In this document: positions 1 to 29,551 of the stretch, in pieces
Numbering within the stretch: position 1 is the first letter of the stretch
Layout: the number at the start of each line of letters is the position of its first letter
The notes under the pieces: generated by a model
Databases searched by the model: none
Told to the model about the DNA's origin: nothing
The model's input: the letters and a program-made list of their open reading frames with translations, nothing else
IMG/VR virus record: IMGVR_UViG_3300025732_000177
Coordinates: 1 to 31,370 of that record
From: a virus
DNA: 31,370 bases
Direction: 5' to 3' (one strand)
Translations under genes and position numbers: made by a program

Positions 1-290
1 GCAATGGCCGTGATGAACTCGCCGCTCTGGTGGCGTAGGGTGCCCATTACGATCCACTGCCCACCAACCAGGCCCGGCCGGAAGTCCGGAAGGGCCAGTC
101 CGTTCTGGGTCAGGGGCCCACGCAACGCCTCGCAGCAGGCCGAATACGAGGCGAATTTGCTGCGAAAGTGCGGGTTGGCACTGTCGTATTTCACAATCGG
201 ATACGCGGCCTGGGCAGCCGCCAGGGCCTTGGTCAGTTGCCCAGTGACGGGCGAGCCGCTCGGCCCCAGGATTTCGTTGTTGTCGTTCAT
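1..290 (-). CDS. ERF-family single-strand annealing protein (partial, C-terminus off the left edge)
   Basis: Only the first 96 codons are in the window. ERF proteins anneal complementary single strands in phage recombination and genome circularisation. The visible N-terminal part has the typical ERF pattern: a helix KALAAAQAAYP, then NPHFRSKFASYSACCEALRG, then LTQNGLAL, matching the family pattern of NP(F)-(K/R)SK(Y/F)A followed by a hydrophobic helix and a QxGL turn. The ATG at 290 overlaps the stop of the upstream nuclease gene as ATGA, so the two are translationally coupled. An annealing protein next to a RecE-like nuclease is the usual two-component phage recombination pair. The call rests on motif recognition alone, because the C-terminal half is not visible. 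Confidence 0.75.
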   Translation of the reverse strand, partial: MNDNNEILGPSGSPVTGQLTKALAAAQAAYPIVKYDSANPHFRSKFASYSACCEALRGPLTQNGLALPDFRPGLVGGQWIVMGTLRHQSGEFITAI

Positions 291-1144
291 AGAATCACCT
301 CCTCCTCACGCTTCCTCGCCCACGCCGGAACGACCATCTCCGTGATCTCGCCGTGATCCGCAGGCAGATACACGCCGGTCGAACGTCGCAGGCGAACCTC
401 CTCCATCACGCTGACCAACCGCTGGCCAGCCTCCTCCACCAAGTCATCAGGCAAATAGAAGACCTTGCACCTGTAGGGCGGCATGGTCTGAACGAAGACG
501 AACGGCATGCGGAACGGCATGTAACCGATCTGTTCCGCACCACGGCAGTACAGCCACTGCTGTTCCGCGTAGCCGTAGTCGCACACGCTCTTGCCGATCT
601 TGTTCCACGGCGAACTGGTGGTCTTCAAATCCCACCACAGGTCTTCGCACACACCGTCCGGCCTGACCTTCAGCCTGTGGCCGTTGGCCTCCTGCCAGAA
701 CACGGAGAGCTGCGTTTCAGTGGTGGACTCAAACAGTTCACGCGCCGCCTCGTTGGCGAATGCGTTGTCCACCATGGTGCGGTAGACGAACGCCTGGTCG
801 GCGGTGCAGCACACCCCGGTCTGGTTGGCCTCCCACTCCCGGTACGCCTTGGTGTTCCGTGATCCGCTGGCACCCAGAACTTCATCCGGCGGGATGCAAA
901 CCAGCGAGTCGAACGACTGGCCGGCGCACATGCCCATGATGATTTGGTCGAACTCGCCGCCGCGCTTGGTGGCCGCGTTCCCGGCGAAGAGCGAGCGACC
1001 GGAGTCCATCCACAATTGGGCCTCCCCGCCGCCGTCCGCCACAGCCCGCAGGAAGGTCCGAGAGTCAAACTCCTTCAGCGAGTGGTAGATGTGGGCCGCC
1101 ATGCCGACGACCTTCACGGGCCCGCTGGAAACGTCGATGTTCAT
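287..1144 (-). CDS. PD-(D/E)XK nuclease of the RecE/exodeoxyribonuclease VIII-like type
   Basis: This 285-aa protein probably resects double-stranded ends to give single strands for the ERF partner encoded next to it. The catalytic core is visible: VRPDGV with D163, then LWWDLKTT with D172 and K174 (the D...DxK core), and a QxxxY element (AEQQWLY, Q195/Y199) downstream, as in RecB-like and RecE-like nucleases. I chose the ATG at 1144 because AGGTGG lies just upstream of it. A start 11 codons earlier (1177) is open, but it would lie inside a hairpin and has no clear ribosome site. The stop overlaps the ERF start (ATGA). It could also be a Cas4/AddB-like nuclease, but gene pairing and length favour the phage recombination exonuclease. 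Confidence 0.78.
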   Translation of the reverse strand: MNIDVSSGPVKVVGMAAHIYHSLKEFDSRTFLRAVADGGGEAQLWMDSGRSLFAGNAATKRGGEFDQIIMGMCAGQSFDSLVCIPPDEVLGASGSRNTKAYREWEANQTGVCCTADQAFVYRTMVDNAFANEAARELFESTTETQLSVFWQEANGHRLKVRPDGVCEDLWWDLKTTSSPWNKIGKSVCDYGYAEQQWLYCRGAEQIGYMPFRMPFVFVQTMPPYRCKVFYLPDDLVEEAGQRLVSVMEEVRLRRSTGVYLPADHGEITEMVVPAWARKREEEVIL

Positions 1145-1165
1145 ATGTCCACCTGTGGAGATGCG

Positions 1166-1185
1166 AAAAAAGCCCATCCGTGGGC
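1166..1185 (-). terminator. Hairpin plus U-tract, terminator or attenuator upstream of the nuclease gene
   Basis: On the minus strand GCCCA-CGGA-TGGGC is followed directly by six T (complement of 1166-1171), the form of an intrinsic terminator. The stem is only 5 bp. It lies just upstream of the nuclease ribosome site, so it would either stop read-through from the right or act as an attenuator in the nuclease leader. Confidence 0.45.
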
Positions 1186-1216
1186 GAAAAGCGATCCTTC
1201 AGCCCGTCCGTGGGCG
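1171..1216. repeat. Two 16-base direct repeats with internal dyads, 30 bases apart
   Basis: AGCCCATCCGTGGGCG (1171-1186) and AGCCCGTCCGTGGGCG (1201-1216) differ at one base. Each contains a GCCC/GGGC dyad. The 30-base offset is close to three helical turns, so a dimeric regulator could bind both copies on the same face of the DNA. The first copy also forms the terminator-like hairpin described separately. Confidence 0.6.
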
Positions 1217-1432
1217 GGCGGCAGAGATCGACTGGCCAAGGTGTCCAGCGATCAAAAGGCCGAGGCACAGTTCCATCTGTGCCAGCCAGGAGAGAAATCC
1301 AGCACCCACCCTGACGGCGGGGGCTAGAATGAAGTCGGCTCGCTCAAAGAGAGGAGCGAGTTTGGGCAACACTCCAACTGAGCTAGCTGCCCAATCGTTC
1401 CGAAAAAAACGATTTTTCAGGGGTGACCAACC

Positions 1433-2305
1433 ATGCCGAGTTCCAGAAGACAGGTTAGTCCCCGCTCGGAAACTACCATGACGCTGCAAGAACTCGCCAG
1501 GAAGTACCACAACAGGGTGGGAGGATCCCCGGGCTACCTGGAGCAACTGGAGGTGTTCGTTCGCCGCCTTCGATGGAAGGCTGCGGACCTCTCCCCGGAA
1601 CTCATCGACTCCTACCTGACCGATGCCCTGAAACATCTGGCTCCCTCCACCGTTGCAAACCACCGGAAGATGCTGCGGTGCCTGCTGCACTTCGCCGCCT
1701 CCGAGCGAATTGTGGACGCCAGTATACTGCGCCCCCTTCGCCGTGTCAAACGAGTTCCACCGAACCCCAGAGCGTGGAGTCACGCGGAAATCCGTACGCT
1801 TTTGTCGGTAGCTGCGAACCTGCGGGGCGGTCGCAAATGCCCGCGCAGTCTGCTGGCGAGGGCGTGGATCCTGGTTGCGTACAGCACTGGGCTGAGACTG
1901 GAAGACCTGTTGTCGATCCGCCATGATCAAATCCGCGGTCAGCGTCTGTGCCCTAGTCAGCACAAGGTGGGTTACCCCCATGTGTGCTGGCTGGACGACA
2001 ATGCCCTGGCAGCAATCCGTTCGCTGCCTGTCCTTGGGCCGCGTATCTTTGGCGACCTCATCTGCCGAGACAAGGCCATGGCCATGATGCGGCAGCTCAC
2101 GCGGGCCGCTGGCCTGCCTGGAAGCACTAAGTTTCTGCGGCGATCCGGGGCGACCTACTGCGAAATTGCAGGCAAGGACGCCACTGGACACTTAGGACAC
2201 AGATCTCCAGGGATGAAGGTCTACTACATCGACCGGCTGCTGCTGGCAGAGGAGAAGCGCCAGGAGCCGACCGCGCCGCCGCTAGACCTGCTGGAGCAAA
2301 CCTAG
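1433..2305 (+). CDS. int: Tyrosine recombinase / phage integrase
   Basis: This 290-aa protein is the only plus-strand gene. An N-terminal SAM-like core-binding domain (about residues 17-100) is followed by the catalytic domain. Catalytic residues are R155 in box I (STGLRLEDL), K178 in the beta-hairpin, KFLR (K233, R236) in the place of HxxR, H256 in LGHRSPG and the nucleophile Y265, nine residues after H256, in VYYID. The H-to-K change in HxxR is tolerated in some lineages. The ATG at 1433 is chosen because GGGGTG lies about 7 bases upstream; ATG 1478 is an alternative that would still contain the whole core-binding domain. It is expected to insert or excise the phage genome. Its 3' end overlaps the end of the convergent structural operon by 24 bases. 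Confidence 0.93.
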   Translation: MPSSRRQVSPRSETTMTLQELARKYHNRVGGSPGYLEQLEVFVRRLRWKAADLSPELIDSYLTDALKHLAPSTVANHRKMLRCLLHFAASERIVDASILRPLRRVKRVPPNPRAWSHAEIRTLLSVAANLRGGRKCPRSLLARAWILVAYSTGLRLEDLLSIRHDQIRGQRLCPSQHKVGYPHVCWLDDNALAAIRSLPVLGPRIFGDLICRDKAMAMMRQLTRAAGLPGSTKFLRRSGATYCEIAGKDATGHLGHRSPGMKVYYIDRLLLAEEKRQEPTAPPLDLLEQT

Positions 2306-22165: not shown

Positions 22166-22661
22166 CAATCACCTCAACCTTCTGAATGTTCATGGCGGCC
22201 TCCAAGACTTGGCGTCTCAGCTCGGCCTCCAGCTCTTCTTCGCTCATCAACTCCAGCGGCTTCTTGGCACCGCCCATGGCAGTGTTGCCGACCACCAGGC
22301 GGACCACGGAGTCCAGCATCTTGGTGCGAAACGCTCCGCCAACGGGGGCGTCGTAGAACTGCTTCATGTAGGCGTTGGCAAACCCACGCACCCCGCCGAA
22401 GTACTCCATGATGATTTCCAGGAGTTCGGAGGAGTGCGGGATGTTGGCCCCGCCCAGTCGGGACGCCTTAATGAAGGAGTCCACGGCGGACTTCTCAATC
22501 CGCGCCAGCCGCTTGTTGCGGACCTGCTTCCGCTCGCCCTTCATCTTGTCGTTGCGGCACTTGCGGCAACGGGCATGCAGGCCGTCCTTGGACTTGTGGA
22601 AGTTCTCCGCCGTGGCCGGGTACGAAGTTCCGCAGCCGATGCAAGTCTTGTATTCAGACAC
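22071..22661 (-). CDS. Zinc-ribbon protein, candidate small terminase subunit (196 aa)
   Basis: The N-terminus is a zinc ribbon (C7, C10, C32, C35: KTCIGCGTSYP and HARCRKCRND) of the kind that precedes endonuclease VII-like or other DNA-binding phage proteins. No nuclease active-site motif follows. Instead there is a helical domain (PHSSELLEIIMEYFGGVRGF, then NAYMKQFYDAPVG) and an acidic helix, ELMSEEELEAELRRQVLEA. Helical content, DNA-binding ribbon and a place just upstream of terL are what one expects of a small terminase, but the identity is inferred. The start is GTG at 22661, overlapping the previous stop by 8 bases. Confidence 0.55.
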   Translation of the reverse strand: MSEYKTCIGCGTSYPATAENFHKSKDGLHARCRKCRNDKMKGERKQVRNKRLARIEKSAVDSFIKASRLGGANIPHSSELLEIIMEYFGGVRGFANAYMKQFYDAPVGGAFRTKMLDSVVRLVVGNTAMGGAKKPLELMSEEELEAELRRQVLEAAMNIQKVEVIDGTSVPNLPVVGIHLPEQRPVSEISTDRPAG

Positions 22662-24054
22662 TACTGGACCACACCGTGCCTTGCGTCTGGAAGTCTTTGA
22701 ACTGTTCCCGCACAGCCTGCGTCACGCCATGGAACAGGCCGTAGTCATGGCCAGCCACCACATGCATGGCCAGCGGCCGCCAGAGCGCAATGTCTGCCAT
22801 CACAGAGTCGTAATCATGCTCGGCGTCGATGTAGACGATGTCGAACCGCTCGCCCATGCCAGCGAAATGCTCCGCCGCGTCCCGGGAGCTGCCACGGAAA
22901 TAGCGGAGCTTTCCCGCAGACGACGCCTGCTTTGTGTTTGCCAGGAACGTCTTAAAGGCCGTGGCCGCATCGACGCCTTTGGTCCCGCTGTCGTTCTTGT
23001 TGCCCTCCCAGTGGTCGATGCACGTTACCGTCGCACCAGCCTCCACCATGATCAGCGCGGACCTTCCGGCCCATGATCCGATCTCGGCCACCTTCGGCGC
23101 ACGGCCATGTTTGGCGATGAAGTCCCTGACGATCTTGCGAATGGCATCTGCGTCCGTTGTGTGGAGATCCATGCCCAGGCCATTGAACGGCACGGCCTCC
23201 AGCCACTTTGGGGTTGGCAGGTCGATCAGCTTGGTGCCAGAGTCAACCTTGGCGTCCCAGCAGTCCTTCAGCTTGGAACTCACGCTTTTGGCGTCGATGA
23301 TCTGCGGCTTGCTGACGCACTTCGGCTTCCAGTGCCCTGCCCAGGCGTCCCAGTTGCAGTAGACGGGACTGTACCCCAGTTTCTGGGTGCCAACGAGCGA
23401 CAAGTCCCGCGTCTGCGTAACGTCCTCAGTGGACGCCTTCTCAGAGGCGTACCTGTCCTTCCACTCATAGTAGAACCACGGCTTGTCGTTGTCGGCCTTC
23501 GGCTCCGTGAGATCGAAGCACCGCATGTCGTACATGATCAGGCCGGTAGGCAGGGCGGCGCATTCCTGAATCCCGGCCAGCTTCACCGCCGTGTGCCGGT
23601 CGTACATCTCCAGTTGGAAGTCTGGGTTCGGGTTCTCCGATGCCCAGTTATTCCAGCGGAAGACATACACACACTCCACGGGCGGAGGCCCGCAGTACGG
23701 GGCACCGATGCAGCATGGCCCCTTGTGGTAGTGATCAACCAGGAAGTCGAAGCTGCTTTTGAAGAACGGCTTGGCGTCCGGCTGGCCTGCGAGGATGTCA
23801 GGCTTCATGTCGCTATCGACCATCACCAGGACATCGATGCCATGCTCCCTGGCCATGAGAACGGCCCGGTTGCGGGTCATGGTGATCGGCGTGTCGGCCA
23901 AGTTCCAGACGCGGATGCCGGCTACCCGCTCGTCCTTTGATAACTCCAGCACCGTGGGCAGCATCCACTCACGGATGTCAGGCACCTCAGAGGAGATGCC
24001 GCCGTTGCCGCCGTATGAGAACGTAACGATGCCGACCTGGAACTTTTGCTGCAT
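22654..24054 (-). CDS. Glycosyltransferase (GT-A like) - SAM methyltransferase fusion (466 aa)
   Basis: Residues 1-250 resemble a GT-A glycosyltransferase: VGIVTFSYGG at the first strand, MTRNRAVLMAREHGIDVLVM, then VDSDMKPD (79-86), with the DxD that binds the metal and nucleotide-sugar. Residues 300-460 are a class I methyltransferase of the Methyltransf_24 type: AEIGSWAGRS (323-332, SAM-binding loop), TCIDHWEG (acidic end of strand two), DIVYIDAEHDYDSVMADI (405-422) and VVAGHDYG. The combination suggests transfer of a sugar and methylation of the same or a related glycan, either on the virion or on the host surface. A promoter candidate lies upstream, and GAGGTG precedes the ATG. It interrupts the head genes. 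Confidence 0.75.
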   Translation of the reverse strand: MQQKFQVGIVTFSYGGNGGISSEVPDIREWMLPTVLELSKDERVAGIRVWNLADTPITMTRNRAVLMAREHGIDVLVMVDSDMKPDILAGQPDAKPFFKSSFDFLVDHYHKGPCCIGAPYCGPPPVECVYVFRWNNWASENPNPDFQLEMYDRHTAVKLAGIQECAALPTGLIMYDMRCFDLTEPKADNDKPWFYYEWKDRYASEKASTEDVTQTRDLSLVGTQKLGYSPVYCNWDAWAGHWKPKCVSKPQIIDAKSVSSKLKDCWDAKVDSGTKLIDLPTPKWLEAVPFNGLGMDLHTTDADAIRKIVRDFIAKHGRAPKVAEIGSWAGRSALIMVEAGATVTCIDHWEGNKNDSGTKGVDAATAFKTFLANTKQASSAGKLRYFRGSSRDAAEHFAGMGERFDIVYIDAEHDYDSVMADIALWRPLAMHVVAGHDYGLFHGVTQAVREQFKDFQTQGTVWSSSV

Positions 24055-28660: not shown

Positions 28661-29551
28661 CTATCGCTCTTCGGCGGGCGAGTCGGTCATCGCTCCGCTG
28701 GCGGCGCCTGCGGCAATGGGTGGCAGCAAGCCATACTTCCGCAAGATGCGGATGGAGTCTTCGGTGCCAGGGAACATTACGAAGTTGCGGGTGCCTTGGC
28801 CGGCGGTGCGAGAGTTGCCGTCCAAATACCGGATGCCTGGGATTCCTTCTTGCCGCATACGGATTGTGGCTATGTCGGCCGCCGTGCGGGCAGAAAGCGG
28901 CGCATACCTGTCATTTGCCGCGCGGGTGACAGACTTTTGGTATGCATCGCCCCCACGCCACCGCGTTGGTGTCGCAATGTCTGGGATGGCGCCCATGGCT
29001 CGCATTGCATCGACAATGTGCTGCGGCTGCGAGAGAACTGGCGCATCCCAATCCAAGAGCGCATCTTCCGGGTGGCCTATTGCCACTTCGTACATGCGTC
29101 CACGGCGCACGGGAGGCGGTGGTGTGTCCCCAGCCCTCCGCAAGAACTCCAGGCCCTGTTGCATGAAGTCTGGGGGCGTCTCTTTTGGAAACGGCACACC
29201 AGACAAGGCGGCCTTCATTGCCTCTTCTATATCGCGCACCGTAACAGCTTTCGCCATCGCCGCGTCGTTGGCGTGAATCCCAGAGTTTGTACGCCACCAA
29301 TTGGTCGCAAACTCTTCGGGAGTCCACGCCGGCAGCGATGTCATCCGGCGATATGAGTCTGCGACTGCCTCGTTGCCAGCAAAGTACAGACCATGTCCGT
29401 AAGCCTGCGCGCCTTCGCCAGTCCCGATCTTACTTGCATCAAACCTGTCGAAGTCATACGGGCTGCCGTGATACGCACGGATGTACTTCGCATCCGGCGC
29501 CTGACCGCTCACTGCCCGTAGTACTGACTCCAGTCGGCCCAGCTTCCCCAT
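28661..29551 (-). CDS. PolyVal-type ADP-ribosyltransferase-like protein (296 aa)
   Basis: The N-terminal half has the ART signature of phage polyvalent proteins: RAYHGSPYDFDRFDASKIG (25-43, H28), GAQAYGHGLYFAGN (47-60, Y56) and GRMYEVAIGH (151-160). The C-terminal half carries QEGIPGIRYLDGNSR (234-248) and GTRNFVMF (253-260), a block I know from the same proteins. ARTs transfer ADP-ribose from NAD+ to a target; the third catalytic residue is not clear by eye, so activity is unproven. A hydrophobic segment, LLPPIAAGAASGAM (275-288), lies at the end. Here the domain is a gene of its own, starting just after the 340-aa gene stop (the ATG is 3 bases past it). Confidence 0.78.
   Translation of the reverse strand: MGKLGRLESVLRAVSGQAPDAKYIRAYHGSPYDFDRFDASKIGTGEGAQAYGHGLYFAGNEAVADSYRRMTSLPAWTPEEFATNWWRTNSGIHANDAAMAKAVTVRDIEEAMKAALSGVPFPKETPPDFMQQGLEFLRRAGDTPPPPVRRGRMYEVAIGHPEDALLDWDAPVLSQPQHIVDAMRAMGAIPDIATPTRWRGGDAYQKSVTRAANDRYAPLSARTAADIATIRMRQEGIPGIRYLDGNSRTAGQGTRNFVMFPGTEDSIRILRKYGLLPPIAAGAASGAMTDSPAEER

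Follow-up and report, generated by a model that had tools for sequence, protein, structure and literature searches.

The intergenic region between the integrase gene of the phage analysed here and a divergently oriented nuclease gene is very probably the attP of a temperate phage, used by a tyrosine integrase whose target is the 5' half of a tRNA gene in the host. The region lies in a phage record of 31,370 bases (the window, by which we mean the whole stretch of DNA that was analysed), which encodes a P22-type portal protein and in which a plus-strand integrase gene points away from two minus-strand genes, one for an exonuclease VIII-like nuclease and one ERF-like. We read the region as an attP because a tRNA 5' end is always found beside the integrase, differing from phage to phage and with exact matches in hosts, and because the symmetry of the region is centred on TCARTTG. 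The phage thus has an adjacent tyrosine integrase, a block of identity to a host tRNA and inverted half-sites around an overlap, as do attP sites that target tRNA genes. The features discussed below are the following.

287 to 1144, minus strand: RecE/exonuclease VIII-like nuclease gene (phrog_412, E 1e-31; DUF3799), the first gene past the hairpin
1166 to 1185, minus strand: hairpin GCCCA-CGGA-TGGGC followed by TTTTTT, before the ribosome-binding site of the nuclease gene
1199 to 1372, minus strand: small ORF of 57 aa, possibly a membrane protein, between the core and the hairpins
1202 to 1219, minus strand: upstream copy of the hairpin
1362 to 1394: putative attP core dyad TTGGGCA-N19-TGCCCAA, two proposed integrase half-sites around the overlap, with 7/7 arm positions paired in the window
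1374 to 1392, minus strand: tRNA 5'-end block GGGCAGCTAGCTCAGTTGG, the candidate attP identity block, 19/19 identical to tRNA-Val(CAC) of Planctomycetia
1375 to 1381, minus strand: TCAGTTG, the proposed 7-bp overlap, equal to the D-loop; in 19 phages the inverted repeat is centred on it
1403 to 1430, minus strand: putative promoter position upstream of the tRNA block, with a -35 box TTGGTC (1430-1425) and the -10 position at 1408-1403
1478 to 2305, plus strand: tyrosine integrase gene, about 275 aa (phrog_1, E 5e-22); the annotated ORF starts at 1433

The minus strand from 1392 to 1374 is identical to the first 19 nt of the tRNA-Val(CAC) of one planctomycete family. The block consists of the acceptor 5' strand, T8 and A9, and the D-arm; it begins at G1 of the tRNA and ends in the D-loop, so that the identity covers the 5' end of the tRNA and not its 3' end. 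Blocks made up of the acceptor strand and D-arm of some tRNA are present in 19 of 19 phages, and they are of three types (Val, Arg-ACG and a third, Arg-like type). The window reads GGGCAGC-TA-GCTCAGTTGG on its minus strand, and the other Val-type phages read the same except for GGGCARC as the opening; four phages (L018, L094, L095 and L096) carry GCACCCC-TA-GCTCAATTGG, and two (L091 and L092) carry GCGCCCG-TG-GCTCAATTGG. Such a switch of tRNA type between relatives points to an attachment core that changes its target, and would not be expected of an element internal to the phage. Coding constraint was considered as a cause of the conservation of the block and rejected, since in four phages the small ORF does not keep one reading frame from one side of the block to the other.

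The host search was widened to the level of the class after a search of Pirellulaceae with one mismatch allowed, which apart from a phage contig gave only tRNA-Val genes with one mismatch, and a search of a phylum sample with a longer pattern, which gave nothing. The exact 19-nt match to tRNA-Val(CAC) was then found in 8 of 398 Planctomycetia genomes, all eight of them in one family (72 genomes); the tRNA gene is complete at seven of the eight loci and is cut by a contig end at the remaining one. In these eight genomes the host tRNA-Val(CAC) opens with GGGCAGC or GGGCAAC followed by TAGCTCAGTTGGTTAGAGC, and both forms are found in the phages as well. In many Pirellulaceae, tRNA-Arg(ACG) begins with GCACCCCTAGCTCAATTGGATAG, and L018 and L094 match this tRNA there exactly over 23 nt; the block of the third type (L091) had no exact counterpart among the host tRNAs seen. 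The only match among metagenome-assembled genomes was a phage contig in a Pirellulaceae bin (L032, JAGYIQ010000016.1). The tRNAs of that bin do not include a cognate tRNA-Val 5' end, and its assignment as bin or host may be wrong.

The position of the overlap was approached by scoring complementarity at distances of 4 to 16 around every centre in the 19 phages. The highest score, 163, falls on the central base of TCARTTG, as against a mean of 61.8 (sd 13.6) and a maximum of 101 elsewhere; in the window this centre is base 1378. Most relatives retain 3 to 7 of the 7 paired arm positions of the core dyad, its centre is the same in all of them, and the arms themselves can be quite different, as in CCGGGCA-N19-TGCCCGG (L016) and CCGTGGC-TCAATTG-GCCACGG (L091). 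To judge from these sequences the geometry is that of a tyrosine recombinase core with its putative 7-bp overlap placed on the tRNA D-loop, and strand exchange would take place within TCARTTG. The left half-site, which reproduces the host tRNA exactly in its acceptor 5' strand and D-stem, would have to remain tRNA, and the right half-site would be phage sequence, free of that constraint and mirroring the left half.

The integrase itself is compatible with such a site. A match to PF00589 is present in 11 of 12 homologues, and the methionine at position 16 of the annotated protein (ATG 1478) is invariant in the 12 homologues and preceded by an unconserved region, so that translation probably starts at 1478 rather than at 1433; with this conserved start, the true divergent gap is 1145-1477. 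A structure model of modest quality (pTM 0.54) has its best fold matches to XerA and to the core of lambda Int and exhibits no added N-terminal domain, and a short integrase of this Xer/lambda fold would suit a simple core of two half-sites. The box II histidine (HxLRR/HxLRH) is replaced by lysine, in the form TKFLRRS, in 12 of 12 homologues. A search of the phage record collection gave no match to the integrase, and no tRNA block was found near the distant integrases of the host family.

Since no lysogen junction was found, we infer, rather than observe, recombination at the site, and the steps that follow are proposed from the arrangement of the parts. Integration would create two junctions. 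At the first, a phage promoter and the phage-borne tRNA 5' end would be joined to the body of the host tRNA, which would thereby be rebuilt (phage int-side sequence and GGGCARCTAGCTCAGTTG joined to the tRNA-Val(CAC) body, ...GTTAGAGCGC); at the second, the host tRNA promoter and tRNA 5' end would come to stand before the leftward operon of the phage, with its small ORF, terminator-like hairpin, and recE-like and ERF-like genes (the ERF-like gene assigned by eye). As a tentative extension, with somewhat less than an even chance of being right, integration might act as a genetic switch that places an essential host tRNA under a phage promoter and lends the host tRNA-Val promoter, tuned by the hairpin, to a recombination operon and a small membrane protein.

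Sequences that could serve as promoters are present on the minus strand upstream of the block. The arrangement TTGGNC-16-TACAAT is read directly in L018, L081, L093 and L094, and further relatives have other -10 sequences of the TAYAAT type. The -10 position is occupied by TACAAT or TATAAC in many relatives and by TTTTTT in the window, and the strength of the window promoter is doubtful because its -35 box is kept but its -10 is a degenerate run of T. Similar GCTACGAT boxes precede host tRNA-Val genes at three of the eight loci. The ORF of 57 aa is possibly a gene for a small membrane protein: its frame is open and hydrophobic in 17 relatives, and its pN/pS of 0.72-0.85 is the lowest of the six frames but a weak signal; no start codon is common to the relatives.

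Between this ORF and the nuclease gene lies the hairpin at 1172-1185, which is retained in 18 of 18 sequences, with 95% of the aligned cells paired and compensatory double changes in 6 cells, as compared with none in slid controls. Together with its U-tract it is predicted to be an intrinsic terminator or attenuator, which would limit read-through from the host tRNA promoter into the leftward operon. A scan against Rfam gave no family, and an exact DNA search with the hairpin region gave no match in viral contigs. Alternatively, the hairpins might form a nut-like antitermination site or a protein-binding site in place of a terminator. We consider this unlikely, even though two similar GC hairpins lie 30 nt apart, within a 16-nt direct repeat (AGCCCRTCCGTGGGCG at 1171-1186 and 1201-1216) that spans both, and nearly all relatives share the loop motif AYGGA. 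In all relatives the second hairpin runs directly into a U-rich tract, inspection by eye showed no conserved boxA, and the pairing of the upstream copy, within which the stop codon of the small ORF lies, is poorly kept at aligned positions; these points favour the reading as a terminator or attenuator.

The nearest known parallel is found in archaea. The pTN3-like integrases of Thermococcales use the 5' half of a tRNA gene as attB, and the rebuilt tRNA is read from a promoter on the side of the element (PMC8371274, PMC5495485); a review of archaeal recombinases describes integration in tRNA 5' halves as seldom encountered in bacteria (PMC8371274). The phage resembles these elements in the location of its identity, and the rebuilding of the tRNA and the element-side promoter proposed for it would extend the likeness. 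In the archaeal elements, however, attP lies inside int, which is split upon integration, and the identity is 41 bp long, whereas the attP proposed for this bacterial phage (1374-1392) lies upstream of the int start at ATG 1478, is palindromic, and has an identity of 19-23 nt. Bacterial tyrosine integrases that target the anticodon loop, the T loop or the 3' end of tRNA genes likewise use a 7-bp overlap in a loop with inverted half-sites and leave the tRNA intact, as would the phage; they differ in that their elements bring the 3' portion of the tRNA, so that the host promoter remains in charge, whereas the phage carries the 5' part as far as the D-loop and, by our proposal, its own promoter. 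A phage that uses the 5' part must supply both the start of the tRNA and its promoter, and an essential host gene would then come under phage control. For ICEKp1, promoter switching that depends on the state of the element has been described, in which a host tRNA promoter reads into the integrated element and stem-loops in a 5'-UTR act as an attenuator (PMC13023037); there the tRNA promoter drives int, whereas in the phage it would drive the operon of the small ORF and recE.

Integration at this site might also proceed without a working tRNA being rebuilt, with a phage-encoded tRNA or another host copy compensating for the loss. There are precedents in mycobacteriophages with tRNA-dependent lysogeny, in which attB lies in a tRNA gene, the common core is about 10 bp, and a phage tRNA substitutes for the one that is destroyed (PMC10865867), and the window shares only 19 nt with its host tRNA. 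We nevertheless regard this possibility as improbable: no tRNA gene was found in the window or its relatives, and the exact conservation of the acceptor strand extends as far as G1, which rebuilding requires. Equally, the tRNA-like block is very unlikely to be a relic or an RNA element (a truncated tRNA or a leader) that regulates the leftward mRNA; it does follow closely on a likely promoter of the minus strand, and its dyad could form a hairpin in RNA too, but such a role would leave unexplained the matches to different host tRNAs in different phages, the constant place beside int and the symmetry about seven bases of the D-loop.

The preliminary description of this DNA had drawn attention to seven inverted repeats packed into the divergent region. 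These exist at the coordinates given there, and the perfect-arm dyads (at least 5 bp) between 1172 and 1414, not counting overlapping matches in A/T tracts, are as follows.

1172-1185: 5-bp arms
1202-1219: 5-bp arms
1226-1253: 5-bp arms
1264-1283: 7-bp arms
1339-1360: 7-bp arms
1362-1394: 7-bp arms, 19-nt spacer
1393-1414: 7-bp arms

The dyads are denser than expected by chance: four perfect 7-bp dyads were observed and 0.32 expected, none of 500 dinucleotide-preserving shuffles contained as many, and just 0.5% of the 288-nt windows of the whole 31,370-nt sequence equal this count. Both strands also fold better than 200 of 200 shuffles (z = -3.58 and -3.47), in the comparison with shuffled sequence that the same description had proposed.

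Conservation was assessed in an alignment of 18 gap sequences, namely the window and 17 relatives. Integrases 62-86% identical are encoded by seventeen viral contigs, to which distant ones were joined by alignment. Here the dyads diverge in their fate. The hairpin at 1172-1185 persists, as does the dyad at 1362-1394 in varying form, and the best-conserved stretch of the gap (1373-1384, 91%) lies inside the latter. The three dyads that had been singled out as resembling recombinase core sites (1264-1283, 1339-1360 and 1394-1413) mostly have 0-3 of 7 positions paired in relatives that keep both flanking genes (at most 4, apart from 6 of 7 in one phage at 1339-1360), and so fail the refuting condition that the preliminary description had itself set. 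The earlier idea of a tyrosine recombinase core beside the integrase therefore holds in general, with the core relocated to the dyad at 1362-1394, and that of a structured RNA applies to one element alone, the hairpin at 1172-1185. Although perfect 7-bp arms with spacers of 6-8 bp occur in the window far more often than chance would give, the three dyads are most improbable as core sites or as a cluster of repressor operators for divergent promoters, given their loss in 17 relatives, the lack of a motif common to the three and the lack of any host match.

Integrated copies were sought directly. No lysogen with attL and attR was found, the genome scan yielding one related integrase, in a phage contig; there was no integrated copy in 240 family genomes or in 72 family genomes, and no viral contig contained a captured junction, in which the block would form part of a complete tRNA start. 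One contig with two integrases (IMGVR_UViG_3300049595_001870, 117,778 nt) was considered as a pair of tandem prophages and rejected: two phage genomes (L013/L085 and L092) have been joined in it via a near-identical stretch of 0.5 kb, so that the contig is chimeric and provides no evidence of integration. A genome of 59,201 nt contained in it closes upon itself with an end overlap of 48 bases. In another phage (L009, IMGVR_UViG_3300042507_003741) the small-ORF side of attP is nearly identical to that of L002 and the int-side sequence is different, as though an exchange in or close to the core had brought the two sides together.

From 19-23 nt the attP block predicts the hosts of planctomycete phages that are otherwise anonymous, and in a phylum for which few integration tools exist the site might serve as an att site of small and defined extent. 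Elsewhere in the window, the protein encoded at 28661-29551 has a weak match, below the curated cut-off, to ART-PolyVal (an ADP-ribosyltransferase domain of polyvalent phage proteins), and a protein of 466 aa with a C-terminal methyltransferase domain (Methyltransf_24) is encoded at 22654-24054, between the terminase-side and capsid-side genes.
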